From contig NZ_CP060488.1 in NCBI RefSeq assembly GCF_014334015.1, positions 2,996,501-3,060,500 on the forward strand: a stretch of DNA of 64,000 nt. The letters are read 5' to 3'. The DNA comes from Bacteroides sp. M10. Its GTDB lineage: Bacteria; Bacteroidota; Bacteroidia; Bacteroidales; Bacteroidaceae. How positions within the stretch are numbered: the first letter of the stretch is position 1; every line of letters starts with the position of its first letter. The position numbers and the translations under genes were made by a program. The notes under the pieces were generated by a model, which was not told where the DNA came from, made no database searches, and saw only the letters and a program-made list of their open reading frames with translations. Shown one piece after another: positions 1 to 45,429 of the stretch.

Positions 1-1212
1 AAGGTGAAACGCCTGAAGAAGCGGTACGGCTGCGAAGGGTATGCAGTGTACCAGTATATCCAAAACGAGATATACCGGGTTGAAGGCTGTTATATCCGTT
101 TCACAGACGACCAAATGTTCGACGTTTCCGAATACTGGGGCATTGAAGAGGAGAGGGTAGAAAAGATCATTGAATATTGCACGGAAGTGGAATTGTTCGA
201 TACCATCACTTGGCATACGAATCATGTACTTACTTCTGTGGATATTCAGCAGCGATACCTTGAAATCTGCCGGAGAGCCAAGAAAAAAATAGTACTGCCC
301 GAAGACATACGGCTTGTCGAGATACAAGATGCGCCATCCGGCATGGATAGTGCACCGCTACCTGCGCCGCTACCTCTTTTCTCCGGTCAGGAAATCGAGA
401 CGAAAACGGGAAAAGCAGTTTATGGTTCTCCCCAAATGGATGCCCGAAGCGAGACTACGACCGGTACCGGAAAAGAGACTGCAACTGGTACCGGAAAAGA
501 GCTCGCAACCGCTGCCGGAATATCTTCCGGCGCCATTATTCCGCAGAGTTCTGCGGAAACTCCGGAAACTCCGCGGAATTCTGCGGAAAAACGGCACAAA
601 GAAAAGGAAAGTAAAGAAAATTCCCCCTCTATCCCCCAGGCTATTCCGCAGACAAGGGATGAGGAGGACAACGTTTCACTCTCTCCGGATGGGAATAGGG
701 GAAATATTTCCGCAGAATCCTGCGGGAAACGTCCGGAACATTCCGAAGATTACCGTTTGAAGTTGCAGCGGTTGGGTGAAACTTGCTACAATCTGGGGTG
801 TTCGAAAGGAGATGTCCGGAAAGTCCTGATGATAGAAAGCATAGCCTTGGACGACAGCCCGATATGGCAACTGATTGAAGAATTGAAAGCGAGCGGCGGA
901 CGTTATTCGTTCACCGGAGATGTGTTGCCCGCCCTGTGGGGACTGGTGAAGACGGGACGCCTGCGGATGATGGAAGAGTGTACGGATGAGGTGAAAGAGG
1001 GCGTTCATAACGTCAGGCAGATGCTGTCGGGTATCGGCGTGCCGAGCTACGACATGGACGAACTATGCGAAGAAGCGAAAGGCAAAGAAGATGTCCTGCA
1101 GGAAGTAATACGGGAAATTCGACGATCGAAAGGACGGATTCTTTCGGTGAGCTGCTTCATCAGGTCACGGCTGAAAAAAGCGCAGAAAAATGAATTGCAA
1201 AAAACGGCATGA
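1..1212 (+). CDS. Phage replisome organiser-like protein (Lin1244/DUF4373 N-terminal domain), 5' truncated
   Basis: The reading frame is open from the first base, and the first GTG (position 4) is probably internal because family members begin about 30 residues earlier, so the gene starts outside the window. The first 100 residues (YGCEGYAVYQYIQNEIYRVE, then IRFTDDQMFDVSEYWG) match the winged-helix-like Lin1244/Lin1753 (DUF4373) domain found in phage and plasmid replication initiators. Residues about 110-245 are a low-complexity linker rich in Thr, Gly, Ser and Glu that includes a repeated TGTGKE unit. The C-terminal part (about 250-402) is helical and charged, as expected for a partner- or DNA-binding tail. 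The next ORF starts inside its stop codon (ATGA), so the two are translationally coupled. Replication function is inferred from the domain only. Confidence 0.75.
   Translation, partial: KVKRLKKRYGCEGYAVYQYIQNEIYRVEGCYIRFTDDQMFDVSEYWGIEEERVEKIIEYCTEVELFDTITWHTNHVLTSVDIQQRYLEICRRAKKKIVLPEDIRLVEIQDAPSGMDSAPLPAPLPLFSGQEIETKTGKAVYGSPQMDARSETTTGTGKETATGTGKELATAAGISSGAIIPQSSAETPETPRNSAEKRHKEKESKENSPSIPQAIPQTRDEEDNVSLSPDGNRGNISAESCGKRPEHSEDYRLKLQRLGETCYNLGCSKGDVRKVLMIESIALDDSPIWQLIEELKASGGRYSFTGDVLPALWGLVKTGRLRMMEECTDEVKEGVHNVRQMLSGIGVPSYDMDELCEEAKGKEDVLQEVIREIRRSKGRILSVSCFIRSRLKKAQKNELQKTA
463..725. repeat. Intragenic direct repeats and CCGCAG-N4-CTGCGG palindromes
   Basis: Inside the linker of the replisome-like gene, GGTACCGGAAAAGAG occurs twice (463-477 and 487-501, 24 bp apart). 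A palindrome CCGCAG-N4-CTGCGG occurs at 541-556, as the variant CCGCGG-N4-CTGCGG at 571-586 (30 bp later), and again at 710-725. Replication initiators of several phages (lambda O is the classic case) carry their origin iterons inside the initiator gene, which makes this a candidate origin remnant. That role is inference. Confidence 0.5.
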
Positions 1213-30908: not shown

Positions 30909-31055
30909 GCTTTTTATTCTTATATTTTCCCAATTTAATGTATTAATAAACGGACGTTATGGTTTCAACAAAACGAAGTCCGGTATCTTTTTATTGTTGT
31001 CAAAATGCTTAATTTTACTAGGGTCTTGCTAGATGATTAAAAAACTCTTTGAAAA

Positions 31056-31330
31056 TTTGCATCTTTTGATAAAACAATTACTTTTGCACATCTAGATAAG
31101 CTCTAGGAGGGTTGACGAATTTTCAAAAAGCGCTTTTAGTAGTTGTCTTTAACTCTTTTTTAAGTTGTAATGTAAGTATTTACGTATTGATGAATCTGGC
31201 TTTTTCTATTAAAGAGTGGTATGCGTACTTAAAAGATGAAGACAAATAATGAAACAAATTCCTGCGCTTTTTTTTGTATCTAATAAAAAGGTTGAATCAG
31301 TGGAATTTATAGACCGGAAAAACAGTCCAT
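31056..31330 (+). promoter_or_regulatory. Consensus promoter and long leader of the tubulin-like operon
   Basis: TTTG (31056-31059), a 19-bp spacer, and TACTTTTG (31079-31086) form the textbook Bacteroides -33/-7 promoter. Transcription should start near 31093 and leave a leader of about 240 nt before ATG 31331. The leader contains the palindrome AAAAGCGCTTTT (about 31126-31137) and a short upstream ORF (15 codons from 31236). Upstream, 30909-31055 is AT-rich with no other feature. Confidence 0.7.
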
Positions 31331-31882
31331 ATGGGTATACTAGGCTTTATCGTTACGCTCTTTTGGGGAATACTGGCAGGAATTGTAGTGACGATTCTTA
31401 TCGTGTATTTGATAAATAAACTAATGGATACCCCAAAGTGGTTGGTTGGATTGATAGGACTTTTTCTTCTCTTCTTTCTTTCCTTTCAGTTTACGGCAAT
31501 TATTGGTGCCGGAAAAGTAAAAGGAGTAGTTGAAGACATTACTGGCCTAAGTAATACTGTTAGTGGACAGGTCGATTGGAATAATATTGAAACGACCTAT
31601 CCTGTTTTAAAACCTTATCTTGATAAAGTCGGAACGAAAGCAGACGAGATGATAGACAAGAAAACTTCGGCGCTTTCTCTTATTAATAGCGTCATTAATG
31701 GCTTTATGTGGCGACGTACGGCATGGGCATTGGGCGGAATAATGATATGTTTCGTGGTGGCTGCCTTGCCAGCATTGACCGGAAATGGGCGTAATCGACA
31801 GGGACGACGAGGGGCATCAGCTTCTACCCGTCATCGGACTACGCAACATACAAGTCGTTCACATCGGCTACGATCAAGATAA
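31331..31882 (+). CDS. Operon gene 1: integral membrane protein, 183 aa
   Basis: Two adjacent N-terminal transmembrane helices (GILGFIVTLFWGILAGIVVT and WLVGLIGLFLLFFLSFQFTA) are followed by a predicted soluble loop of about 65 residues (VEDITGLSNTVSGQ). A third helix (AWALGGIMICFVVAALPALT) precedes a strongly basic, Ser/Arg-rich tail (RQGRRGASASTRHRTTQHTS). By the positive-inside rule the tail is cytoplasmic and could contact the acidic tubulin-like protein encoded 38 bp downstream. No family recognised. Another frame from 31248 overlaps its start but is not preferred. Confidence 0.8.
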   Translation: MGILGFIVTLFWGILAGIVVTILIVYLINKLMDTPKWLVGLIGLFLLFFLSFQFTAIIGAGKVKGVVEDITGLSNTVSGQVDWNNIETTYPVLKPYLDKVGTKADEMIDKKTSALSLINSVINGFMWRRTAWALGGIMICFVVAALPALTGNGRNRQGRRGASASTRHRTTQHTSRSHRLRSR

Positions 31883-31920
31883 AGAGAACAAAAAAACAAT
31901 TATAAATACTAAGTGATATT

Positions 31921-34900
31921 ATGGAAACATTAGACCCGAAAAGTCCTAACCACATCCTAGTCGGTTTAGGCGGTACAGGTGGTAAAGTGCTGAAAGCTAT
32001 TCGCAAACGCATTTATCAGGAATTTCCCAATGATGAAGAACGTGATAAACTGTCTATCGGTTTTGTCTATGTCGATTCTACGCGTGAGATGATGACACCG
32101 GGTGATCCTTCTTTCCGTGTGATGGGGAAGGACGCTTCGTTTACAGAAAGTGAGTTTGTGGATATTAAGTCGGTAGACCTGAAACAGATTCTAGATAATG
32201 TATCCAATTATCCCGGTTTGAAGACCATTGTGAAGAATGGTGCTTCAATGAAGAATACTTTGGGGGAAGTGGGACAGGCTGCCGGGCAGAAACGTCGTGC
32301 AGGACGCATTCTTTTTGCTGCAAATTGCAATAAGTATCTTTCTGCTTTGAAAGGACAGTACAATAAAGTGAAGTCCCTGACCAACAAAGATGAAGTTAAT
32401 ATTCATATCTTTACTGGTTTGGCCGGTGGTACGGGATCGGGTGCTATTATCGATGTCGTTGCCCAGACTCGTGCCCAAGAGACTTATAAGCATGCTAACA
32501 TTATGGTTTATGCCATGGTACCTGAATTGGATATTCCCTCCGGATGTCAGGCGGGACGTTACCATCAAAATGGTTATGCTGCATTGAAAGAGTTGAGTGC
32601 GCTTAATATCGGACGCTTTGTTCCTTCGGATGTTATTCGTGGAGAAGAACATATGGAGTTGGATTTTACTCCTAATAAACAGTTCGGTTTAATGCTTTAT
32701 TCTAATGTGAATGAAAATGGCGTAGTAGTCAATTCCTTTACAGAGTTACCACAGCTGTTGGCGGATACCGTTTATTTCCGTCTGTTTCTGGAAGAGAAAC
32801 ATGGCACGACTGATGATCTTTTACGTTCTTTCAGTTTGGAGAATATCAATGACTTCTGTGTAGAGTATAGTGAAAAGTCGAAAGGAACAGATAAGGAACG
32901 TGCTCGTACGAAAGCAATCAATACATTTGGCATTAAACGCATTATCTATCCGGAGAAACGAATTTTGGAACACATCACTTATACCGTAGGTGAGCGTGTT
33001 CTGTGGCAGATGCAATATAATAATTTCAAGGATGATTTCGGGTTTGTGCAGGAATCGGTTCGTAAGGATTATCGTGAGTTGTATATCAATGACAAGAACT
33101 TGCGCGACTGGCTGCTGGATGACAGTCATTTGATGCTGGAAGAAAAAATATTCGATACAGATAAATATTGCAGTAAGATAGAGAATTTCTGGAGTGATAT
33201 TACTAATAGCTATTCTTATGATGATGCTAAAGCGGTAGATCCGGAACCTTTGAGATTCCTTGAAAGTATCTGTGCGGATACTTATAAGAATGCTTTCCGT
33301 AATAAGCAGGGGGTAGAAGTTTACTATCAGGACAAGAGCAATGACCAGTTACTGAAAGAACAGGCGCAATATATCATTGAGCGTATAGAGAAGAATTTGT
33401 ATACGAAATGGTATGAGGGTTCTCTTTCTTTGGAAGATTTGCTGAATATCTGTGACACTGTATTGACTTATATAAAAGACCGCAAAGAGAAGATAGAAAA
33501 CGATATTGCCGGAGTTGATGAAAAGATTAAAGTGAATGAGGACGATGCTGATGCTAACAACTACGATTATAACCATTTGTCATTGTTGCAGCGTGCTACC
33601 GGACGTTCACCCCGTCTCTACTCCGATCATCAAATGATAATGAAGGATCTCTATGCGTTACGAACTCAACGTGTTGCTTATGAATTTGAAGGTAAGTTGT
33701 TGGGTAAGCTACGTGCAGCGTTTGAAGAATTCAGTGCAGAAGTAAGTCAGTTCATCGGTGTGTTGCTGGTATCAATGGATGCTGCTGAAAAACGTATTGC
33801 CGATCGTAATAAGAACACGAAAGGAATAGCCGATTTGTCGAGTGCTATTGTGGAAGTCAGTGAGGACGAAAAGATGCTCAAGCTCGAACAGGCGTTGATT
33901 CTGGATAAGAATCAGCAGGAAACCTGGTCGGGAAATATCCGTAAGGCTATTACAGGCAACCGCAATTATGCTCACTTTAGCGAACTGGCTGCCACTACTT
34001 CCGAAGATGCTATTTTCGATATATTCGATACGGAGTTGAGCCCGAAGATACGTGAAAAACACGATCAGGATTATCAGAATGATAAGATTTTGGGACTGAA
34101 TGTATTGCAACAGTTGCAAAAGGTATTGCTTACGGATACGGATATTCGTAATTTCGCTTCTAATGTAATTAATCAGAGTGGTACATTCCTGAAACTGGAT
34201 GATGGACAACTTTCGAAAGCATTGAATAATAATGAAAACCCGGTTTCTCATCCTGAATCGATCAATCGTAAGACTATTCTGATTTCTATGCCGACTGATG
34301 AGGGTAACGACTCACTCAAAACATTTGCCAACAAATTGAAAGCCGCATTACAAGGTGCTTTCGGAAATGCTACACCGGGAAGTACAATCAATTTTAATAC
34401 TTCCAGTGATCGTATGAATGAAATTGCTGTCATTTCCATCCGGTATTGTTTCCCGATGCGTGCCATTGCTTGGTTGCCTTCTTATGATCGTGCGTATAAC
34501 GATATGGTGAACAATAAGAATGAATTGGCTGCAAAAGAAGCCCGTATCTTACTTCATTGCGAAGGTGACGGTACGGAATTGCCGGACCTTACGGGAGAAA
34601 AAAAGGTTTCACCGAAAGATTTTATCCCTTATTTCTTCGTGGCTGCTGCAAACAATATTCTTGCCGTACGTGAGAACGAGCGGGAAGAAAAAGGCTGGTG
34701 TATTGTCACTGCCGATGAATGGGGAGCTGAAATGGTAACTCTTATCGCATCCCAGTTTACAGAACTTCTGACTAGTGAAGATTTAACGGAAGAAGTGCTG
34801 GATACTATCAAAGAAAAGGTAGATGAAGTATTGAAGAACCCGGACTTGAAGATGAGTGACCGCGCCGCTATGGTAGAAGGAGTGAAGGTAGTGATGCGCG

Positions 34901-34998
34901 ATTACGTAAGTAAGGAGTGCTCCAGTCCTACATCCCCCAAGTATCAGCAATACAGCGCTGAAGCAAAGAAAGCATTGGAAATGATTAATAAGAAATAA
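31921..34998 (+). CDS. Operon gene 2: bacterial tubulin/FtsZ-like GTPase, 1025 aa
   Basis: The N-terminal 350 residues match the 'tubulin-like' domain of large bacterial proteins. HILVGLGGTGGKVLKAIRKR (11-30) is the first nucleotide loop. IFTGLAGGTGSGAIIDVVAQ (163-182) is the counterpart of the tubulin/FtsZ glycine signature GGGTGTG, with Ala and Ser substitutions. DIPSGCQAGRYHQNGYAAL and FGLMLYSNVNENG follow as in the fold. The remaining 670 residues are mostly helical and charged (KEKIENDIAGVDEKIKVNED), a size unlike cell-division FtsZ (about 400 aa). There is no signal peptide, so the protein is cytoplasmic. It likely binds GTP and may form filaments; partners are suggested by its operon. 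Confidence 0.85.
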   Translation: METLDPKSPNHILVGLGGTGGKVLKAIRKRIYQEFPNDEERDKLSIGFVYVDSTREMMTPGDPSFRVMGKDASFTESEFVDIKSVDLKQILDNVSNYPGLKTIVKNGASMKNTLGEVGQAAGQKRRAGRILFAANCNKYLSALKGQYNKVKSLTNKDEVNIHIFTGLAGGTGSGAIIDVVAQTRAQETYKHANIMVYAMVPELDIPSGCQAGRYHQNGYAALKELSALNIGRFVPSDVIRGEEHMELDFTPNKQFGLMLYSNVNENGVVVNSFTELPQLLADTVYFRLFLEEKHGTTDDLLRSFSLENINDFCVEYSEKSKGTDKERARTKAINTFGIKRIIYPEKRILEHITYTVGERVLWQMQYNNFKDDFGFVQESVRKDYRELYINDKNLRDWLLDDSHLMLEEKIFDTDKYCSKIENFWSDITNSYSYDDAKAVDPEPLRFLESICADTYKNAFRNKQGVEVYYQDKSNDQLLKEQAQYIIERIEKNLYTKWYEGSLSLEDLLNICDTVLTYIKDRKEKIENDIAGVDEKIKVNEDDADANNYDYNHLSLLQRATGRSPRLYSDHQMIMKDLYALRTQRVAYEFEGKLLGKLRAAFEEFSAEVSQFIGVLLVSMDAAEKRIADRNKNTKGIADLSSAIVEVSEDEKMLKLEQALILDKNQQETWSGNIRKAITGNRNYAHFSELAATTSEDAIFDIFDTELSPKIREKHDQDYQNDKILGLNVLQQLQKVLLTDTDIRNFASNVINQSGTFLKLDDGQLSKALNNNENPVSHPESINRKTILISMPTDEGNDSLKTFANKLKAALQGAFGNATPGSTINFNTSSDRMNEIAVISIRYCFPMRAIAWLPSYDRAYNDMVNNKNELAAKEARILLHCEGDGTELPDLTGEKKVSPKDFIPYFFVAAANNILAVRENEREEKGWCIVTADEWGAEMVTLIASQFTELLTSEDLTEEVLDTIKEKVDEVLKNPDLKMSDRAAMVEGVKVVMRDYVSKECSSPTSPKYQQYSAEAKKALEMINKK

Positions 34999-35004
34999 AA
35001 AATT

Positions 35005-35682
35005 ATGGCAAGACCTAGTGAACGCGACAGATACAAATATGGTATCTGCACCAATCGTGACAAGAATGGAGAAGGAACTCCTTGTCCTAAATGCGAAAGT
35101 AAAGAAGTACAGAAAGTAAGAGGTGGACAGGACTTCGTATGCGAAGAATGTAAAGACCCGCTGCGTATGGTTCCACCTCCCAAAGAGGGACCAAATATGA
35201 AGATGATCGGCGGTATTATTGCAGCCGTTGTGGTACTTGGTGGTGTGGGTCTCGGTATCGCTTTTAGCGGTGGAGAGAAAACAAGTGATCCCATTGGAGG
35301 AATAGAGCCGGATTCTATTAACGTTGTTAATCAACCGCAGGAAGATGACGGAGTGGAAACAGACCAATCGCATACAAAAGATCAAGTAGAAGTAGTTGTT
35401 GCTGATAAAGGAAATGCCGGAGTGACTGACGGTGGAACAACAGGCGGTATCGTAACGAAAGACTTCGGTTATGCTGTCTACAAAGGACGTATGAAGAACG
35501 GCCTGATGAACGATGAGAATGGAGTTTTGACATTTAAGACAACTCATATTATAGAACCGCGCGACGTGAAAAAGCGTGAAGCTAAGGCAGGTGAAAAGGT
35601 GGTTGGTATCTTTGAAGACGGTCATCTCATTACCGGTACGTGGTATAAGAGCGATGGAAACAAAGAGGTAATCATTCCGTAA
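35005..35682 (+). CDS. Operon gene 3: zinc-ribbon, single-TM, MORN-like protein, 225 aa
   Basis: An N-terminal zinc ribbon has CPKC and CEEC pairs (residues about 31-34 and 50-53) inside SERDRYKYGICTNRDKNGEG context. A single transmembrane helix (MIGGIIAAVVVLGGVGLGIA, about 65-85) follows. After a low-complexity Asp/Gly/Val linker, the C-terminal 70 residues contain MORN-like repeats (YKGRMKNGLMNDENGVLTF and GIFEDGHLITGTWYKSDGN). Topology would put the zinc ribbon in the cytoplasm and the MORN part in the periplasm, bridging the tubulin-like protein and the exported products. It starts 6 bp after gene 2 and its stop overlaps gene 4 by one base. Confidence 0.8.
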   Translation: MARPSERDRYKYGICTNRDKNGEGTPCPKCESKEVQKVRGGQDFVCEECKDPLRMVPPPKEGPNMKMIGGIIAAVVVLGGVGLGIAFSGGEKTSDPIGGIEPDSINVVNQPQEDDGVETDQSHTKDQVEVVVADKGNAGVTDGGTTGGIVTKDFGYAVYKGRMKNGLMNDENGVLTFKTTHIIEPRDVKKREAKAGEKVVGIFEDGHLITGTWYKSDGNKEVIIP

Positions 35683-36686
35683 TGAGGAATCCGTCCACTC
35701 AAATAATCTACATAATTCTTTTGCTGTTCCCGCTTTCCGTGTGGGGGCAGCAAACAAGAAAATGGGGAAATGGAAAACTACGCCAGACGGTTGTTTCCAT
35801 CTCCTCCGATGTTCCTTTTGCTACGGCAGCTTATGATTTTGCAGAACGGTATCTGATCCAATTGCAAAAGATGTCCGTTGCCGAGCGGAAATCGCAGATG
35901 GAGCGTGATAATGTGCTGATAACACAGGGGAGTATGGATCTTTTGAATCTCATCAACGAACAGACATCAATGAATTTTTCCGAGAAGGAAAACCGTTACA
36001 TCGTGTCGCTTATCAATGAGAAATTTCTTTTGATCGAACTCTCTTTTCCGGCTTCATGCCAATTGCTGACCGGAAAAAATCTGAAAGAACTGGAAGCCGA
36101 CTTTGTAAAAGGATTAGCTTCTTATAGTTACACTCCATCTTCTTCGCAACCCATACGGAAGGAACTTAAAAAGTTGGCGGGAGACTATTATGTGAAAACG
36201 GGGGATACCTATTACATAGAAGAAATCAACGGGAATCTTTATTTCGAGGAAAAGAACCGCGTTTTGCATCCGGTGTTCAGCATGGATCATCCTGCCGAGA
36301 GCGTGTTTAATCTTTTTCTTAGTGAAGATACACCTTGCAATGTTTCTATCAATCTAACCGTACGCCAATATGGGCTGAAAAGAGAACAGATGGAACTTCC
36401 CGTCCGCTCCTGGATATCCTATATGCGTAATCAGGGTTGCACTCTTTATGTGGGTATTGAAGCGTTGGAAACCAATGCGGTAAAGGCGTATGTCTTTGCG
36501 GTGAATACTGTGTTAAAGTATAATCATGTGATGAATGTGGAAATTCCCAACTCGCTCCTAAGCGGAGGGAAAGGAAAAGTAGAGGGCGATGTAACCTTGT
36601 TTGTCCCCACCCACAATATTTCATCACTTTTTGAAGAACTTAATTGGGTAAATACTACCCCAAAAAGGCAGATTAAAGTAAAATGA
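35682..36686 (+). CDS. Operon gene 4: exported protein of unknown function, 334 aa
   Basis: A signal peptide (STQIIYIILLLFPLSVWGQQ) indicates export. The N-terminal part is helical (ATAAYDFAERYLIQLQKMSV), followed by a beta-rich region (KTGDTYYIEEINGNLYFEEK) and a C-terminal beta segment ending in FVPTHNISSLFEELNW. I recognise no family. The start codon shares a base with the stop of gene 3, and its stop overlaps gene 5 (ATGA), so translation is coupled in both directions. Confidence 0.8.
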   Translation: MRNPSTQIIYIILLLFPLSVWGQQTRKWGNGKLRQTVVSISSDVPFATAAYDFAERYLIQLQKMSVAERKSQMERDNVLITQGSMDLLNLINEQTSMNFSEKENRYIVSLINEKFLLIELSFPASCQLLTGKNLKELEADFVKGLASYSYTPSSSQPIRKELKKLAGDYYVKTGDTYYIEEINGNLYFEEKNRVLHPVFSMDHPAESVFNLFLSEDTPCNVSINLTVRQYGLKREQMELPVRSWISYMRNQGCTLYVGIEALETNAVKAYVFAVNTVLKYNHVMNVEIPNSLLSGGKGKVEGDVTLFVPTHNISSLFEELNWVNTTPKRQIKVK

Positions 36687-37447
36687 AGAAGATAATTACT
36701 TTGTTATTGTTTTGCGGAGCATATTGCAGCCTGATGGCACAGAGTGAAGCCGAAACAAAGGCGCAGATCAATAAGATCAAGCGTTCGCAGTCTTATCTTT
36801 CCGCAGAGGCTACCATGCCTACTGAAGAAGAGGCCATTCAACAAGCCAAAGAACTGTTAGTGAGTGAAATCAATGATTGGGTAGCCGGTAAGCGGAAAAG
36901 TGGTGAAGTGAAACAAGTTGTTTTACAAGACATTAATACCTGTACCCAGCGGATGGATATGAAACGCGGAGTGAGAACCCGTGCATTTGTATACGTGAAG
37001 AAAAATGAGATTGTGCTCATTTACGGTGAAGGACAAATCATGTTGAGTGAAGAAGAAAAAGGAGCCGATTTACAACCTTTGTCCGAGATATCAGAACCGA
37101 TCAAGATAGAGTCTGCCAAGAAGTCTGCAAAAGACGAGAAGATGGTTTCGACTGTGGAAAAGATTAGTCCCGAACAGGAGAGTCTGAATCAGGTTCTTGC
37201 GGCAAAAACAATGACGGAGATGAAACAGGTTTTTGCTTCGCTTAAAGAGCAGGATCGAATATCCTATGGCGTATATGCTCCTGAAACGGTAGCAGAACAA
37301 TGTTATTTATTGTTTTATACCCGTACAGGCGAGGTAAAAGGAGTGGTGAAGAAGAATGAAAAGGAACTGAATGACGTCCGGACAAAAGAGGCTACGGATA
37401 TTGCTTCTTTTAGCGGTTGTGGAGCCTACTGGTTCATTCTTAAATAA
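36683..37447 (+). CDS. Operon gene 5: exported protein of unknown function, 254 aa
   Basis: A signal peptide (MKKIITLLLFCGAYCSLMAQ) precedes residues 22-120 that resemble LPP20/FlgT-N-like alpha/beta folds (TEEEAIQQAKELLVSEINDW, then VRTRAFVYVKKNEIVLIYGE). A low-complexity Lys/Glu/Ser linker and a C-terminal domain (EQDRISYGVYAPETVAEQCY) follow. The resemblance is loose. It is encoded with a 4-bp overlap after gene 4. Confidence 0.75.
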   Translation: MKKIITLLLFCGAYCSLMAQSEAETKAQINKIKRSQSYLSAEATMPTEEEAIQQAKELLVSEINDWVAGKRKSGEVKQVVLQDINTCTQRMDMKRGVRTRAFVYVKKNEIVLIYGEGQIMLSEEEKGADLQPLSEISEPIKIESAKKSAKDEKMVSTVEKISPEQESLNQVLAAKTMTEMKQVFASLKEQDRISYGVYAPETVAEQCYLLFYTRTGEVKGVVKKNEKELNDVRTKEATDIASFSGCGAYWFILK

Positions 37448-37472
37448 CAAACATAAGTAGAAAGAGAAGAAA

Positions 37473-38474
37473 ATGAAAAGTATAATTTTGAGTTGGGCAT
37501 TGGTAGCGGTTTGTACACTGATGACTCTACCTGTGCAAGCCCAGGATGCTGTGAGACTGGAAATTGCTGACGGTTTATATGATGCCGGCTTAAAGGCAAA
37601 GATGGAAAAGTCGACCAGCGCACTCCTGACAGAAATCAATAAAGCATTTAAAGAAGGCAGAGCATTGAATCTGGTGTCTTTAGGACTGACCGATACGGCA
37701 GAACGCGGATTGAATGCGTTGTGGGAGAATACCCATTTCTATTGTGATGACTCGGAAGTCGTTCAATCTTGCATCCGCAATGGAAACGGATATCAGGTTC
37801 GCCAAATACCTCTAATGATTAAGCCTGTAGGCGAGACATTGGATGATGAATATCAGGAAGCAGTGGTTAACTATGACGCAAGTGGAAACATCACGCGTTT
37901 CAATTTTACACTTAGCACCACTGTTTATCAAAATGTGATGAAGAAAGGCAAGACGGTGACAGAAGTAGCCCGTCGCCAAGAAATCCTTTCCTACGTAGAG
38001 CAGTTCCGTACGGCTTACAACGAACAGGATATTCATTTTCTGGATAATATCTTCAGTGAAGACGCATTGATTATCACAGGTTCGGTGACTAAAGTGAAGA
38101 AAACCGACGGTGCAGGCATTACTTATAATAAAGTAACCTATAAGAAACAAGGTAAGCAGGAATACATCAACAACTTGAAAAAGAGCTTTGCTGCCAACAA
38201 GTGGATTAATGTCCGCTTTGACGATGTGAAGGTTGTAAAGCATCCTAACCCGAAGATGGAAGGCTTTTATGGAGTAACCGTTCATCAACTTTATGCCAAC
38301 AGCAGCGGCTATAACGATGATGGCTATCTGTTTATGTTGTGGGATTTCCGCGATAAGAATCAGGTGCAGATTCATGTGCGTACCTGGCAACCTCGTTGGA
38401 TGAATGATAATCACACGGAAGAAATAGCCCAGGAAGAAATCTTCACTCCCGGCGATTTCGTAATTGATTTATAA
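37473..38474 (+). CDS. Operon gene 6: exported protein with NTF2-like domain, 333 aa
   Basis: The signal peptide (ILSWALVAVCTLMTLPVQAQ) is clear. The N-terminal domain (about 24-140) is unrecognised. Residues about 165-300 have an NTF2/SnoaL-like layout: EQFRTAYNEQDIHFLDNIFS, EDALIITGS, QEYINNLKKSFAANKWINVR, and a strand-rich end with DGYLFMLWDFRDKNQVQIHV RTW. NTF2-like folds bind ligands or assemble as dimers. The gene is 25 bp after gene 5. Confidence 0.75.
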   Translation: MKSIILSWALVAVCTLMTLPVQAQDAVRLEIADGLYDAGLKAKMEKSTSALLTEINKAFKEGRALNLVSLGLTDTAERGLNALWENTHFYCDDSEVVQSCIRNGNGYQVRQIPLMIKPVGETLDDEYQEAVVNYDASGNITRFNFTLSTTVYQNVMKKGKTVTEVARRQEILSYVEQFRTAYNEQDIHFLDNIFSEDALIITGSVTKVKKTDGAGITYNKVTYKKQGKQEYINNLKKSFAANKWINVRFDDVKVVKHPNPKMEGFYGVTVHQLYANSSGYNDDGYLFMLWDFRDKNQVQIHVRTWQPRWMNDNHTEEIAQEEIFTPGDFVIDL

Positions 38475-38487
38475 TTGTAAAAGTACG

Positions 38488-39858
38488 ATGAAACGACCAT
38501 ATCATATTTTGTTATTGCTAAGCTGTGCGTTAGTGATAGGGATGAAGGCAAGTGCACAAAGGGTTTTCTTTGTGGAGCCCAAAGAAGATCCCACCATTAC
38601 AGCCGGCCCTAATCAGGTAAAGATTATCATCAATTCTAATAGCGATAAGTTGGTGATGACTCATAATATGGGCGAGGAAAAAGGAGTAAGAACCACGAAT
38701 GACGACGGAACTTACCGCTATACCATCAATTATAGTTTTCCCGAAGATTATGAAGATGATTTTATAAAATCCACTTTCCTGGTCAGACTACCCGTCGGGC
38801 AGAAAGACTTTATGCTTGTTTTGCGAAAAGGAAAAGGATACGTGGGGACGTTCAATGAGAACTTTATAACGATTGAAAGGAATAATGACGGACTCTTCCC
38901 GCAGTCGAAAGCTGCGAAAGTAACGTTCCTGTCTGCCATGAAAAAGGTGAATATAGAGTGTAATGGCAAGTTGTGTTTTGCCGACGGACAGGCTGTTCCG
39001 GTGACTGATGTCAACTTCACTTCTTCGGTGAAGCAGGAAGGCGGTGATTTGAATGCCTATAGCATTGAATTCATGTTGGATGAAGAGAAAAAGACACCGA
39101 CATATGTCAAACACCCTATATTCAAAATTAAGGTAGGCTCTTCCAATGCCATTGATGTAGACCTCGGAGGTGACTTGGAATTTAAGAAGTCATATAGCTA
39201 TACCATTGTCAGCAACGTGAAAATCGTAGAAAAAGAAGCTTCATTTGACGAACTGCTCGCTAAAGCTCAAGCCAAAGAGAAAGAAGCCGATTTCTTTGCT
39301 GCCGCCAATGCTTATCAGGATGCCCGCAGCCATGAAAACTGCCCTGTGGATAAACGGAGTGAGCTGGAAGCACAACTGGGTAAGATGAATTCTGCCCGTA
39401 AATTCCTTTTTTATGCAGAGAAATTCGAAAGACAAGGAGCGAGAGTGGAACGCAAAGAAGGATTTACGGCTGACAGCGTATTTATCTACTATCGGGGAGC
39501 GATCCGTAGCTACAAGAAAGTGTTGGAATATGCTCCCGGTACGACGGAATTCGAACGCCGTGCAGAAGAATTGGACGAGAAATTGAAGGCTCACCCACTG
39601 AATAATAAAGTGGCAACAGTCACTGTGAAATATCAGGAAATAACCGGCAGACACCCGAATGGTGGTGGAATCCCCATCTATGCTTCCAATACCCCTGGCA
39701 ATCCGAAGCCAGACAGTGATGACAAACCTCTGGGCACTACCCGGGGCGACGGCTCATTCCGTGTTGTTTTCAAGGATACGCCTCCTTCTTATCTCTACTT
39801 CTATGGCGATAAGAAATCTTATAAGATAGATAGCACGACAACTGAAATAATATTCTAA
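38488..39858 (+). CDS. Operon gene 7: exported protein with TPR-like region, 456 aa
   Basis: I prefer ATG 38488, which gives a signal peptide (PYHILLLLSCALVIGMKASA, cleaved after AQ) and avoids overlap with gene 6; an ATG at 38464 is possible. Residues about 25-235 are beta-rich (NQVKIIINSNSDKLVMTHNM). Residues about 240-350 are TPR-like helices (FDELLAKAQAKEKEADFFAA, then SVFIYYRGAIRSYKKVLEYA). The C-terminus (TVTVKYQEITGRHPNGGGIP) is a small beta domain resembling carboxypeptidase regulatory folds. It may be a periplasmic scaffold. Confidence 0.75.
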   Translation: MKRPYHILLLLSCALVIGMKASAQRVFFVEPKEDPTITAGPNQVKIIINSNSDKLVMTHNMGEEKGVRTTNDDGTYRYTINYSFPEDYEDDFIKSTFLVRLPVGQKDFMLVLRKGKGYVGTFNENFITIERNNDGLFPQSKAAKVTFLSAMKKVNIECNGKLCFADGQAVPVTDVNFTSSVKQEGGDLNAYSIEFMLDEEKKTPTYVKHPIFKIKVGSSNAIDVDLGGDLEFKKSYSYTIVSNVKIVEKEASFDELLAKAQAKEKEADFFAAANAYQDARSHENCPVDKRSELEAQLGKMNSARKFLFYAEKFERQGARVERKEGFTADSVFIYYRGAIRSYKKVLEYAPGTTEFERRAEELDEKLKAHPLNNKVATVTVKYQEITGRHPNGGGIPIYASNTPGNPKPDSDDKPLGTTRGDGSFRVVFKDTPPSYLYFYGDKKSYKIDSTTTEIIF

Positions 39859-39897
39859 TCAAATCTACTATAATTAAACATTTTAAACTTTGCAATC

Positions 39898-40746
39898 ATG
39901 AGAAACAAACATCTGTTATTAGTTTTCGTAGCTATGCTAGGATTGGCTTTTGTGTACCCGACCTCTTTGAGTGCCCAAAAAGACAAGAAGAAAAAAGAGA
40001 AAAAAGAAATTATCTGGGAGCTGCCCGAACCATCGGGAGATGCAACCATTGATGGATATCTGTTGTCTTGTGACACCTTGTATAACAAGATTTCAACATA
40101 TCGGGATAGCCTTTCTCACTACAAATATCGGGAGGCTTCTTTCTCCGTAGGAGGAAAAAACTATCTTTTCAAATGTATGATCGATTCCGTAAACAATCAG
40201 TTCTTGAGCTATGGTATGGGACGTTGGCAGGTAGCACAAGGCATTATGACGGGAGCTGAAATAGTTCTTGATGCCACCAGTCTTAGTTTGAATACGGCTT
40301 CCGCAGCTCTTGCTCTTCCGAACCTGAAGTTGAAGGCAATCAAATATTTTAAACCGGTCAAGGACTTGGGACCTCACGTGATTGGTATGGGCTTGAAAGA
40401 AATTCCCGCCATCAAGAAAGAGTGTCAGAACACCATGCGTAAGTATGGCAATGCAAAGAAAGTAGCTATCCTTCCTGAAAATCTCGACCCGACTGTCCGC
40501 GAACATCTGATGGCTGAATTGGGAATCGATGCAAATACCTTTGAAAAATGGTACTACAAATATATTTTCGTCAATGAAGATATACAGGAAGCTGCCGAAG
40601 GAACCGAGAACCAAGTTGTAGAAAAGACGGAAGAAGAAAAAGACGCAGGCAATAAACTGACGGATTACAAGAACTTCGGTGTAGCCGATTTGCCGGAAGG
40701 ACAGGCTGAACCGTCGGCAGAGGAAGAAATGAACTTATTGAGTTAA
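39898..40746 (+). CDS. Operon gene 8: exported protein of unknown function, 282 aa
   Basis: After a signal peptide (LLLVFVAMLGLAFVYPTSLS, then AQ) comes a Lys-rich stretch (KDKKKKEKKE). A mostly helical domain follows (DGYLLSCDTLYNKISTYRDS, VAQGIMTGAEIVLDATSLSL, LPNLKLKAIKYFKPVKDLGP). The tail is acidic (TEEEKDAGNKL and EPSAEEEMNLLS). No family is recognised. It is the last gene, with a strong terminator 56 bp downstream. Confidence 0.75.
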   Translation: MRNKHLLLVFVAMLGLAFVYPTSLSAQKDKKKKEKKEIIWELPEPSGDATIDGYLLSCDTLYNKISTYRDSLSHYKYREASFSVGGKNYLFKCMIDSVNNQFLSYGMGRWQVAQGIMTGAEIVLDATSLSLNTASAALALPNLKLKAIKYFKPVKDLGPHVIGMGLKEIPAIKKECQNTMRKYGNAKKVAILPENLDPTVREHLMAELGIDANTFEKWYYKYIFVNEDIQEAAEGTENQVVEKTEEEKDAGNKLTDYKNFGVADLPEGQAEPSAEEEMNLLS

Positions 40747-40801
40747 TCGTAATTTGACTTGTTCTTATACTTCTGACATAAAGAACCGTTTTTGAAATAC
40801 G

Positions 40802-40858
40802 AATGACGCAGTAATGTGGACAAAATCAAAAATCCACATTACCTGCGCCATTCTTTTT
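40802..40858 (+). terminator. Terminator of the tubulin-like operon
   Basis: AATGACGCAGTAATGTGGA (40802-40820) and TCCACATTACCTGCGCCATT (40833-40852) form a stem of about 18 bp with small internal mismatches, followed by CTTTTTAT. Confidence 0.85.
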
Positions 40859-40916
40859 ATTTGTTACCTTTATTGAAAACTGCTGTAAACGTGATTCATT
40901 TATCGTATGATTTGTT

Positions 40917-40924: not shown

Positions 40925-40945
40925 CCTTGATTAAACTTGAATATT

Positions 40946-41800
40946 ATGGAACAACAGGCCAATTATATCCGTCGTATCGAAATACACGGACTATGGGAAC
41001 GCTTTAATATAGGATGGGATTTGCGTCCCGATGTGAATATCCTCTCCGGCATCAACGGAGTGGGGAAGACTACCATTCTGAACCGTTCGGTGGGATATCT
41101 CGAGGAACTTTCCGGTGAAATGAAAAGTGACGAGAAGAACGGAGTGCGTCTTTTCTTTGACGATCCCCAGGCAACCTATATCCCCTATGATGTGATCCGG
41201 AGCTACGACCGTCCCTTGATTATGGGAGACTTCACAGCCCGTATGGCAGACAAGAATGTAAAGTCCGAACTGGATTGGCAACTCTACCTGCTGCAACGCC
41301 GTTATCTCGATTATCAGGTCAACATAGGCAATAAGATGATCGAAATGCTTTCCAGCACTGATGAGGAAGAACGCCGTAAGGCAGCCACTCTATCTCATGC
41401 TAAGCGCCGCTTTCAGGATATGATTGACGAATTATTCAGCTATACACGTAAAAAGATAGACCGGAAACGAAATGATATTGCTTTCTATCAGGATGGCGAA
41501 CTATTGTTTCCCTATAAACTATCGTCCGGCGAAAAGCAAATGCTGGTTATTCTGCTGACCGTACTTGTGCAGGACAACAGCCACTGCGTACTGTTTATGG
41601 ATGAGCCGGAAGCTTCCCTTCACATAGAATGGCAGCAAAAACTGATTGCCATGATACGTGAGCTGAATCCGAATGTGCAGATCATCCTGACCACTCATTC
41701 ACCTGCCGTCATTATGGAAGGCTGGCTGGATGCCGTGACAGAAGTAAGCGATATATCTACCAATATAAATCAAACAAATGGCAACTTCACTACGAGATAA
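40946..41800 (+). CDS. AAA/ABC-type ATPase (OLD/PARIS-like), 284 aa
   Basis: This compact SMC/ABC-type ATPase has Walker A GINGVGKTT (35-43), a signature LSSGEKQML (about 191-199), Walker B CVLFMDEPEASLHIEW (about 214-229), and the H-loop LTTHSPAVIMEG near the C-terminus. Between Walker A and the signature a helical insertion (about 85-170) contains RRYLDYQVNIGNKMIEMLSS. The next gene overlaps its 3' end by 23 bp and encodes a DUF4435 protein. ATPase plus TOPRIM-like effector is the layout of OLD nucleases and the PARIS phage-defence system. This ATPase is shorter than what I recall for AriA, so it may be a distinct lineage or a housekeeping pair. Confidence 0.9.
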   Translation: MEQQANYIRRIEIHGLWERFNIGWDLRPDVNILSGINGVGKTTILNRSVGYLEELSGEMKSDEKNGVRLFFDDPQATYIPYDVIRSYDRPLIMGDFTARMADKNVKSELDWQLYLLQRRYLDYQVNIGNKMIEMLSSTDEEERRKAATLSHAKRRFQDMIDELFSYTRKKIDRKRNDIAFYQDGELLFPYKLSSGEKQMLVILLTVLVQDNSHCVLFMDEPEASLHIEWQQKLIAMIRELNPNVQIILTTHSPAVIMEGWLDAVTEVSDISTNINQTNGNFTTR

Positions 41801-42794
41801 TCTGACTTCTTCCTATTTCAATGCCGCCCATAAGCTTTATCCGAAGAAAGCCCGCCGACGTATCATCGCTTATGTAGAAAGCTATGATGACATTGCTTTC
41901 TGGCGCACATTGCTTGAAGAATTTGAAGATGATGAACACTATTTCCAAGTGATGCTTCCTTCGGCCACCTCCCTGGCAAAAGGAAAAAAGATGGTCCTCA
42001 TGAACACGCTGAATACAGCCGAACTGGGGAGAAGCCTGATTGCCTGTGTGGACAGCGACTATGATTTCCTGTTGCAGGGAGCCACTAATACCTCCCGTAA
42101 AATCAACCGGAACAGATATATTTTTCAGACTTATACTTATGCTATTGAAAACTATCATTGTTTTGCCGAAAGCCTTCACGAGGTATGCGTGCAGGCCACA
42201 TTGAACGATCGTTCCATCCTGGATTTCAACTCCTACCTGAAGCGGTACTCCGAAATTGTATATCCACTTTTTCTCTGGAACGTCTGGTTCTATCGCCAAC
42301 GGGATACTTACACCTTCCCGATGTACGATTTCCATACCTATACTTCTTTGCGTGAGATTAATCTCCGGTATCCGGAAAAGAGCCTGGAATCACTCCAACA
42401 ACGGGTTAACCAGAAGTTGGCAGAGTTGAAAAAGAAATTTCCTCATAACATTAATCAAGTAAACGGACTGCAGGCTGAATTTAAAGAACTGGGCTTGGTG
42501 CCGGAAACTACCTACTTGTATATGCAGGGACACCATGTGATGGATAATGTGGTAATGAAACTCTTGATTCCGGTCTGCACCGTATTACGCCGTGAACGGG
42601 AACAGGAAATCAAACGACTGGCCGAACATAATGAACAATTCAGAAACGAACTTACTTGTTATCAGAACAGTCAGGTAAATGTGGAAATCATGCTCAAGAA
42701 GAATGTAGCCTACAAAAGGCTCTTCCATTACGATTGGCTGCGGCAGGATATCAGTGAATATTTAGAAGAAGGAAGAAATAAACAGAAATCATAA
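41778..42794 (+). CDS. DUF4435 (TOPRIM-like) protein, 338 aa
   Basis: The N-terminus fits DUF4435: RRRIIAYVESYDDIAFWRTL with Glu34, then LIACVDSDYDFLL with Asp92 and Asp94, equivalent to the Glu and DxD metal-binding residues of TOPRIM nucleases. A conserved segment FQTYTYAIENYHCFAESLHE (about 116-135) is also typical. The C-terminal part is helical (LAEHNEQFRNELTCYQNSQV). In PARIS the DUF4435 subunit AriB is the toxic nuclease released from its ATPase. The 23-bp gene overlap with the ATPase makes a two-subunit complex likely. Activity is inferred. Confidence 0.85.
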   Translation: MATSLRDNLTSSYFNAAHKLYPKKARRRIIAYVESYDDIAFWRTLLEEFEDDEHYFQVMLPSATSLAKGKKMVLMNTLNTAELGRSLIACVDSDYDFLLQGATNTSRKINRNRYIFQTYTYAIENYHCFAESLHEVCVQATLNDRSILDFNSYLKRYSEIVYPLFLWNVWFYRQRDTYTFPMYDFHTYTSLREINLRYPEKSLESLQQRVNQKLAELKKKFPHNINQVNGLQAEFKELGLVPETTYLYMQGHHVMDNVVMKLLIPVCTVLRREREQEIKRLAEHNEQFRNELTCYQNSQVNVEIMLKKNVAYKRLFHYDWLRQDISEYLEEGRNKQKS

Positions 42795-45095: not shown

Positions 45096-45163
45096 CCTGT
45101 TCTTCCTTATGAACTAATTCGCCGAATACGGAGAATTAGGTTTCGATATGCATAAAATTAATC

Positions 45164-45249
45164 GTCTGACAATTGTTATCTTTTCGTCTGACTACTGTTG
45201 AACTTTCGTCTGACAACTGTCAGACGAAAGTTCAACAGTAGTCAGACGA
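45164..45249. repeat. Perfect inverted repeat with 32-bp arms
   Basis: Arms 45184-45215 and 45218-45249 are exact reverse complements separated by 2 bp. Their ends are CGTCTGAC, and the same word appears within each arm, giving four copies, with a further copy at 45164-45171. It lies 88 bp after the AraC-type gene. Such a stem is far longer than normal terminators and lacks a T-run; the following 45250-45429 is AT-rich without another feature. Confidence 0.9.
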
Positions 45250-45429
45250 TTAGTTTTATTCGTAATGAGGGATAAAACAGTGAAGTTACAGTCTTAAATT
45301 GGCTTATAAACAGGTTAGAGTTATGTCGTAAGTGATTGATAATATGTTTGTAACATGTTGTAATCATCTTGCAACGACTCTTTCAATAAATTGTATTTAC
45401 TTCGTCTTATTGTTGTAATGCCCGACTCC

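Follow-up and report, generated by a model that had tools for sequence, protein, structure and literature searches.

A tubulin-like GTPase operon of Bacteroides is a two-module mosaic with its border inside a membrane-spanning linker

We analysed a 64,000-nucleotide stretch of Bacteroides sp. M10 (the window; contig NZ_CP060488.1, positions 2,996,501 to 3,060,500) and describe an operon at 31331-40746 of the window whose eight plus-strand open reading frames (ORFs), g1 to g8, encode a large tubulin-like GTPase together with membrane and exported proteins. The operon is a two-module mosaic whose border falls inside g3, near the membrane helix. One module comprises g1, g2 and the cytoplasmic part of g3, the placement of g1 not being significant; the other comprises g4-g8 and the periplasmic part of g3. 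The envelope module also exists without the tubulin, either with a TIR or protein kinase head on the same transmembrane (TM)-MORN stalk (three loci each) or headless. A modular trans-envelope complex is well supported, and on balance we lean towards a signalling role for it.

Operon and conserved gene order

The genes are as follows.

31331..31882, +: g1, 183 amino acids (aa), three predicted TM helices and a basic C-terminus (ORF list, hydropathy)
31921..34998, +: g2, 1025-aa FtsZl1/Tubulin_2 GTPase (PF13809)
35005..35682, +: g3, single-pass membrane linker with cytoplasmic zinc ribbon, TM helix, linker and periplasmic MORN-type domain
35682..36686, +: g4, exported; C-terminal part weakly NTF2-like in the structure model
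36683..37447, +: g5, exported
37473..38474, +: g6, exported, with a C-terminal NTF2-like domain
38488..39858, +: g7, exported, with TPR-like repeats and a C-terminal beta domain (ATG start; an earlier TTG at 38464 is listed)
39898..40746, +: g8, exported, without recognised domain

Spacing between genes runs from a 4-base overlap up to 39 bases, and seven of the eight products are predicted to be membrane-bound or exported. An earlier reading of this DNA from its letters alone (the sequence-only reading) had proposed an eight-gene operon with one promoter and one terminator, three TM helices in g1, a membrane-spanning g3 with zinc ribbon and MORN-like repeats, and export of g4-g8; all of these are borne out by the features given here and below. 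Against the copy in Bacteroides sp. GM023, the ratio of nonsynonymous to synonymous substitution rates (dN/dS) ranges from 0.019 (g2) to 0.149 (g1), and all eight genes are therefore under purifying selection.

Gene order was evaluated in 96 loci, after removal of four duplicates (L031, L040, L042, L048); one set used the best 80 of 277 relatives. A g2 match was present in 94 of the 96, of which 86 were counted and eight set aside: other FtsZl1 subtypes (L036, L037, L043, L045, L047, L049), L034, where the contig ends at g2, and L124. Among loci having at least 4.5 kb downstream, 67 of 71 hold g3-g4-g5-g6 in order; no g5 was found in L051 and L082, L103 is reordered, and L060 has none of g3-g6. 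The expected co-occurrence of the exported genes with the tubulin gene thus holds for g4-g6. At the end of the operon, g7 was found in 38/65 and g8 in 35/65 loci having at least 7.5 kb downstream; 26/65 have neither, and 22 of those 26 have exported proteins of a different family, c0, in which WG and Sel1 repeats occur in two members.

Module border inside g3

The border lies among these parts of g3.

35083..35151, +: zinc ribbon, residues 27-49, CxxC...CxxC; Cys27, Cys46 and Cys49 invariant in 31 rows
35203..35259, +: TM helix, residues 67-85 (hydropathy)
35461..35679, +: periplasmic MORN-type domain, residues 153-225, the stalk common to TIR- and kinase-headed relatives (matches of a periplasmic-only profile)

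Pairwise distances were compared over 63 loci (one of 64 was dropped for a short g2), with bootstrapping over loci. The cytoplasmic part of g3 (residues 1-64) shows Spearman correlations of 0.64 with the N-terminal and 0.76 with the middle part of g2, and of 0.20-0.32 with g4-g6. The periplasmic part (153-225) correlates with g6 (0.59), g5 (0.37) and g4 (0.36), and at 0.18-0.26 with g2; the two parts of g3 correlate with each other at only 0.25. As partial rank correlations over the 63 loci, the values are 0.69 with g2 and 0.08 with g4-g6 for the cytoplasmic part, and 0.07 and 0.45, respectively, for the periplasmic part. Zero lies outside the bootstrap interval of the difference for both parts of g3, for g7 and g8 and, weakly and on the envelope side, for the TM segment; it lies inside for the g3 linker and for g1, which leans to the g2 side.

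Individual pairs of loci show the exchange in both directions. Identity between the window and L053 is 82% for g2 and 76% for the cytoplasmic part of g3, versus 32% for its periplasmic part, 25% for g4 and 43% for g6. Between the window and L065 it is 40% for g2 and 46% for the cytoplasmic part, versus 78% for the periplasmic part, 60% for g5 and 76% for g6, with g4 at 46%. L032 and L056 share 18% in g1 and 38% in g2, versus 84% in the periplasmic part of g3, 61% in g5, 72% in g6 and 51% in both g7 and g8.

Trees agree with these identities. A clade of the window with L051, L052, L053 and L056 has support 97 in the tree of g2 residues 1-380 and is rejected by the g6 data (p-AU 8e-15, approximately unbiased (AU) test); a clade of the window with L051, L052, L065, L104 and L033 has support 99 in the g6 tree and is rejected by the g2 data (p-AU 2e-12). 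These tests used 29 hand-picked loci, and the groups were named after the identities were known.

Alternative cytoplasmic heads

Searches with g4 and g6 scored at most five candidates per genome, so that genome counts are lower bounds. In a sample of the order (393 genomes), g4 occurs in at least 14 genomes and g6 in at least 48; of the 14 with g4, seven have the window-type tubulin (on another contig in G275). In G059, a TIR domain is connected by a TM helix with the periplasmic domain of g3, and g4 and g6 come next; in G175 a protein kinase occupies the position of the TIR domain, with g4, g5 and g6 behind it. G092 and G423, which were identified by their g6, carry TIR heads adjoining g6.

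A hidden Markov model (HMM) of only the periplasmic part of tubulin-type g3 scores the G059, G175, G092 and G423 proteins at 70, 41, 50 and 51 bits. Listed by locus, the scores are 70 (L196), 51 (L205) and 50 (L204) for TIR-headed stalks and 83 (L279), 41 (L198) and, weakly, 21 bits (L282) for kinase-headed ones; E-values of this search were computed for 10 sequences. In 6676 ORFs, the same HMM finds two non-g3 proteins at E<=1e-3. The heads match TIR_2 at 3.5e-14 and 7.6e-9, above the cut-off, and at 4.6e-6, just below it (L204), and Pkinase at 4.7e-28, 3e-29 and 1.5e-30. The protein database holds two further TIR-headed homologues, P0125 and P0126. By eye, DxKPDN and DFG are retained in the kinase heads, and a WxxxE-like stretch in TIR head P0121. 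Among PADLOC models, that of Thoeris ThsB matches P0121 (1.4e-9), and that of PD-T4-6 matches kinase head P0122 (8.9e-34; mad6 2.3e-37), both as domain-level similarities only; TIR heads P0123 and P0124 have no PADLOC match at 1e-5.

A family sample gave g4 in at least 57/339 genomes. From its 63 g4 rows, 60 loci were analysed (G424 was already included; G1115:C2 and G1122:C3 are partial), with 35 tubulin heads, two kinase heads, one zinc-ribbon/TPR head, two headless lipoprotein-like g3 and 20 loci without g2 and g3. In a phylum sample, g4 occurs in at least 8/395 genomes, and seven loci outside the order (L213-L219) carry g4-g5-g6 and no tubulin. The commonest head in the samples is the tubulin-like GTPase. 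It looks as if g4-g5-g6 is an older periplasmic core to which, in Bacteroidales, the g3 stalk has linked cytoplasmic heads.

Several related arrangements were seen along the way. At L276:845-7094, the zinc-ribbon and TPR-headed g3 is preceded by two zinc-ribbon proteins of 814 and 733 aa; the 814-aa protein has a His...EACYG-like motif by eye, and the arrangement may represent a further effector head. A paralogous operon without tubulin or g3 has a large TPR-type protein ahead of g4, g6 and a g7-like gene, often with an exported protein of ~490 aa (L293, L286, L287, L289-L291, L294-L305, L307, L308); three genomes (G972, G1047, G879) hold both this and the tubulin-type operon. TIR proteins adjoin g3-less g4-g6 operons at L197:4126-5508 (with Sel1 repeats) and L305:2327-3640.

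The tubulin-like protein g2

With 191.3 bits against PF13809 (3.9e-56; curated cut-off 27), g2 belongs to the FtsZl1/Tubulin_2 family. The FtsZ/tubulin-type glycine loops named in the sequence-only reading are present, and its call of a tubulin-like GTPase agrees with a structure model in which a two-domain tubulin core carries an insert of ~400 residues.

31963..31983, +: T1 nucleotide loop GLGGTGG, residues 15-21; glycines invariant in 30 aligned rows
32416..32442, +: T4 tubulin signature GLAGGTGSG, residues 166-174; all but A168 invariant in 30 rows
33016..34260, +: helical insertion, ~residues 366-780, between the tubulin-fold halves; borders approximate

The approximate borders of the putative insertion derive from the DSSP string of the model and from structural match ranges (8..869/894). 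The model places an extended helical or coiled-coil region after the GTPase domain, with helices at 504-551 and 562-628 among others, and suggests a tubulin-type C-terminal domain after the insertion. Identity to CetZ, TubZ and BtubAB is 10-16%, and the NxDxxD/E T7 motif is not recognisable around residues 290-300 in an alignment judged by eye. A PF00091 protein of the length usual for FtsZ (419-446 aa) is present in all eight genomes of the genus that were searched, whether or not they have the operon.

Some relatives of g2 differ in composition. A GYF-type tail (PF14237) replaces the C-terminal part of g2 in a large clade (41/94 g2 rows; P0112, P0113, P0115, P0117-P0119). We considered docking of this tail on proline, as PPP precedes the g3 TM helix in 31/37 GYF loci versus 7/40 others, and set it aside: the tree shows a single origin of the tail, which makes the association one event of little evidential weight. 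L253, L254 and L112 have an additional, shorter g2-like gene (658-774 aa) next to full-length g2. Other FtsZl1 subtypes in Bacteroidales (L036, L037, L043, L045, L047, L050) have, by eye, vWA-like exported neighbours, which is the classical arrangement; the VWA match in L047 (E 0.042) is below the cut-off.

Linker, g1 and exported proteins

Zinc-ribbon Pfam matches of the window g3 are below cut-off, and the MORN assignment is made at family level: Pfam matches MORN in 12/31 g3 family members, the window member not among them, and the profile of the family hits MORN1 chains of known structure at 1.7e-7. The linker of g3 is repetitive and variable. The g1 gene, with its three hydrophobic helices, lies upstream of g2 in 72/79 loci.

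An N-terminal hydrophobic stretch (by hydropathy only) is found in nearly all family rows of the exported proteins: 78/79 for g4, 72/74 for g5, 74/74 for g6, 41/41 for g7 and 36/38 for g8. The window g6 matches Cds6_C at 3.9e-4, below cut-off, and Cds6_C is found in 5/67 mixed family members (best 1.4e-5). Profile matches of g7 to TPR chains are weak (best 0.0058); in the context of g7, TPR_2 is found in 2/67 and CarboxypepD_reg in 1/67 mixed family members. The protein L202:6387-8162 is a g6 relative with an LPP20 domain (8.9e-7) at the g5 position, that is, a g5-g6 fusion, suggesting that g5 and g6 work together; in L203 a g5 HMM match adjoins g6. In both loci a c0-like exported protein follows, that of L202 carrying PEGA and FGE-sulfatase domains. 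About 30 g6 matches in the order sample have frames of 590-680 aa and may be g5-g6 fusions; those checked are L202 and L203 (the latter by HMM only).

Transcription signals and genomic context

31056..31086, +: promoter, Bacteroides type; TTTG (31056-31059), N19, TACTTTTG (31079-31086), pattern TTTG-N19-TAnnTTTG
40801..40853, +: intrinsic terminator hairpin, -24.6 kcal/mol, z -6.2, followed by a T run
30918..40874, no strand: accessory block that four related genomes lack at this site; approximate limits, taken from the G001 alignment and junction sequences

The promoter pattern, which we take to be of the Bacteroides type from its consensus, was also read in the sequence upstream of the GM023 copy; a sigma-70 scan, which does not cover promoters of this type, gave counts at chance upstream of the operon. 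None of 200 shuffles was as stable as the terminator hairpin, which the terminator scan missed, its loop being longer than the scan permits.

The operon sits at its site as an accessory block. In four genomes of the same genus (G001, G002, G030, G010) the EamA gene that borders the operon on the left is directly beside the AAA/DUF4435 pair of its right side, and the ~9.96 kb that the window has in addition is the operon with its own promoter and terminator and nothing else. G013 carries the operon at the same site with ~82% DNA identity. In the order, PF13809 is above cut-off in 15/393 genomes. Flanks vary among loci, the commonest Pfam family (E<=1e-5) being in 3/129 nearest flank proteins; this set took 129 of 135 proteins, leaving out two of c0 type, two of L124 and one each of L125 and L130.

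A mobile element was considered and rejected after no match was found in plasmids, phages or viral contigs, the last searched with six narrow g2 peptide patterns. Pfam finds no integrase among the eight genes, and no target-site repeat was seen at the block junctions, where the 28 bases by which the alignments overlap appear to be short stretches of similar promoter sequence. To the right of the operon, at 40937-42794, the AAA ATPase and DUF4435 genes are the PARIS anti-phage pair by model (AriA 1.2e-58, AriB 8.4e-72). A defence-island reading was dropped, and the pair is not used as evidence either way: it lies next door, yet is backbone in the four genomes without the operon. Further right, at ~45147-45262, lies a short sequence that related genomes match many times on both strands; it is probably an interspersed palindromic repeat.

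Comparison with known systems

The closest published systems are the FtsZl1 operons (Makarova & Koonin 2010, Biol Direct 5:33, PMC2875224) and tubulin-containing conflict systems (Kaur et al. 2020, eLife 9:e52696, PMC7159879); in the parts of these papers examined, neither describes the operon of the window. According to those parts of the first paper, the FtsZl1 family is usually found beside an ordinary FtsZ, a vWA gene is in the majority of operons, P-loop GTPase, OmpA-like and Ser/Thr kinase partners are frequent, and the alignment is not reliable past helix H5. Like these operons, ours has a family member with a long helical region and membrane and exported partners. Unlike them, it has no match to vWA (E<=1), P-loop GTPase, OmpA or Ser/Thr kinase in the window, a kinase occurring only as an alternative g3 head elsewhere. 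The g3 linker, the g4-g6 core, the module border and head exchange were not found in the portions of the main text consulted; the supplementary tables of associated families may list some of the operon genes for Bacteroides caccae.

The second paper, in the sections seen, describes zinc-ribbon GTPase systems near the membrane in which tubulin, HSP70 and protein kinase are non-overlapping themes, and proposes a conflict role; the tubulin theme is restricted to Firmicutes and Actinobacteria and is built on GAP1, GTPases, FNIII and vWA. Our operon shares with these GAP1-N2 systems, as they appear in those sections, a tubulin with a coiled-coil or helical extension, zinc ribbons, TM segments, NTF2, and tubulin and kinase as alternatives; PEGA, seen in L202, also occurs in them. 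It differs in having no vWA or FNIII match in the window operon, and MORN is not mentioned in the same sections. Beyond g2, no GTPase was matched in the eight genes, by a limited check for GAP1, GASH and DO-GTPase in libraries whose coverage of GAP1 and GASH models is uncertain. To the extent of the text compared, the grammar is alike and the parts are different. The filaments of CetZ, TubZ and BtubAB differ from g2 by the low identity, the ~400-residue insert and the T7 motif noted above. In the covered part of the open literature, with subscription papers, preprints and supplements outside its scope, we found no description of the operon, and no tested function for FtsZl1 proteins since their 2010 description.

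Interpretation

The reading we favour, by a modest degree of confidence, is that the operon builds a modular trans-envelope signalling complex. The proteins g4-g8 would form a periplasmic assembly that the MORN-type domain of g3 joins; g3 would pass through the inner membrane a single time and dock g2 by its zinc ribbon on the cytoplasmic side, probably together with the three-TM g1. An event in the periplasm would then be relayed through g3 to the cytoplasmic head, and the tubulin-family head g2 would respond by nucleotide-dependent self-assembly, while in sister operons the same stalk would carry a TIR domain or a protein kinase. We infer these contacts, the polymerisation and the direction of signalling, which is likely to run inward: TIR and kinase are signalling or effector domains, so the most economical reading is that an envelope event is passed on to a response protein in the cytoplasm. 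Since other signalling domains are attached to the same outer half in related units, the device appears to be one for modular cross-envelope signalling and not a plain cytoskeleton. As outcome, a stress or conflict response seems to us more likely than routine cytoskeletal work; a defence role has no direct support. The sequence-only reading had a cytoplasmic filament coupled through g1 and g3 to a periplasmic complex. Coupling of the cytoplasmic tubulin to the periplasmic proteins is supported genetically for g3, because modules have been exchanged at a border inside it, and not for g1, whose bootstrap interval includes zero; the filament itself is putative, with no recognisable T7 motif in g2. 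The envelope module is not tied to the tubulin, as it also carries TIR or kinase heads, or none.

A number of observations weigh against this signalling reading. The tubulin side can stand apart: L124 has g2 and g3 without g4-g6, and L060 has g2 without g3-g6. So can the envelope side, with 5/14 g4 genomes of the order (G147, G328, G329, G393, G399) lacking g2 and g3, the 20/60 g4 loci of the family sample having no head and a TPR-type protein next to g4 (Pfam run on L293 only), and six of the seven loci outside the order being headless and the seventh, L215, having a lipoprotein-like g3; signalling to the cytoplasm is therefore not the sole use of g4-g6. TIR and kinase heads are few, at three loci each versus dozens with tubulin. 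Between the window and L065, g7 (32%) and g8 (30%) do not follow g6. Some of the correlation pattern could stem from gene adjacency, but the periplasmic part of g3 correlates better with g6 than with the neighbouring g4, although g6 lies two genes off; DNA distance alone is therefore no explanation. The eight genes have no good match in PADLOC 2023 (best E 0.0038), and there is no clear excess of defence models in the nearest flanks (129 flank versus 129 control proteins, E<=1e-10): 101 models match in flanks (25 listed, with 1-2 members each) versus 19 in the control (one each), and numbers of proteins look alike by the names listed, one protein hitting many related models (the PARIS ATPase alone matches 103 at 1e-5).

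A bolder version of the signalling reading, plausible though we would not count on it, is a common trans-envelope receptor chassis of Bacteroidales with exchangeable effector heads (a TIR domain, a protein kinase and perhaps a protease-like zinc-ribbon protein), in which the tubulin is a signal-triggered immune or cell-fate effector and not cytoskeleton. Rather unlikely, but still to be taken seriously, is a machine for membrane remodelling or envelope building, g2 polymerising under the membrane to drive shape change, vesicles or the placing of g4-g8. Such a role was proposed for the FtsZl1 family in the consulted parts of Makarova & Koonin 2010 (PMC2875224) and agrees with the tubulin-superfamily fold of the g2 model and the predicted membrane-bound or exported state of seven of eight products; a PF00091 protein of FtsZ length in all eight genus genomes searched, with or without the operon, leaves g2 free for another task. 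However, signalling accounts for the TIR and kinase heads of the shared stalk better than a mechanical role does, g2 has no recognisable T7 catalytic motif, and the envelope genes persist without the tubulin.

That g2 filaments or rings only position the envelope complex, marking a pole or the septum with no sensing or effector role, we regard as improbable: g2 and the cytoplasmic part of g3 do share a history, and the long helices of the modelled insert could space a scaffold, but a kinase or TIR head would not be a scaffold of that kind, and the heads retain their kinase or TIR motifs by eye. Least credible of all is that there is no functional complex, and that co-transcribed genes have recombined neutrally at a breakpoint hotspot in the low-complexity g3 linker. 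The repetitive, variable linker is a plausible hotspot and follows neither module clearly, and both g7 and g8 are missing from 26/65 loci; yet gene order is kept in 67/71 loci at sites with differing flanks, dN/dS is 0.02-0.15, and the g3 periplasmic domain, when fused to other heads, still lies next to g4 and/or g6.

If the tubulin fold predicted for g2 is indeed split by a large insert, the FtsZl1 family would have to be aligned and classified differently. A defined set of partners, a linker with two separate histories and the TIR and kinase sisters make the role of FtsZl1 a testable question. If the head is an effector, tubulin-family GTPases would join the repertoire of regulated response proteins.

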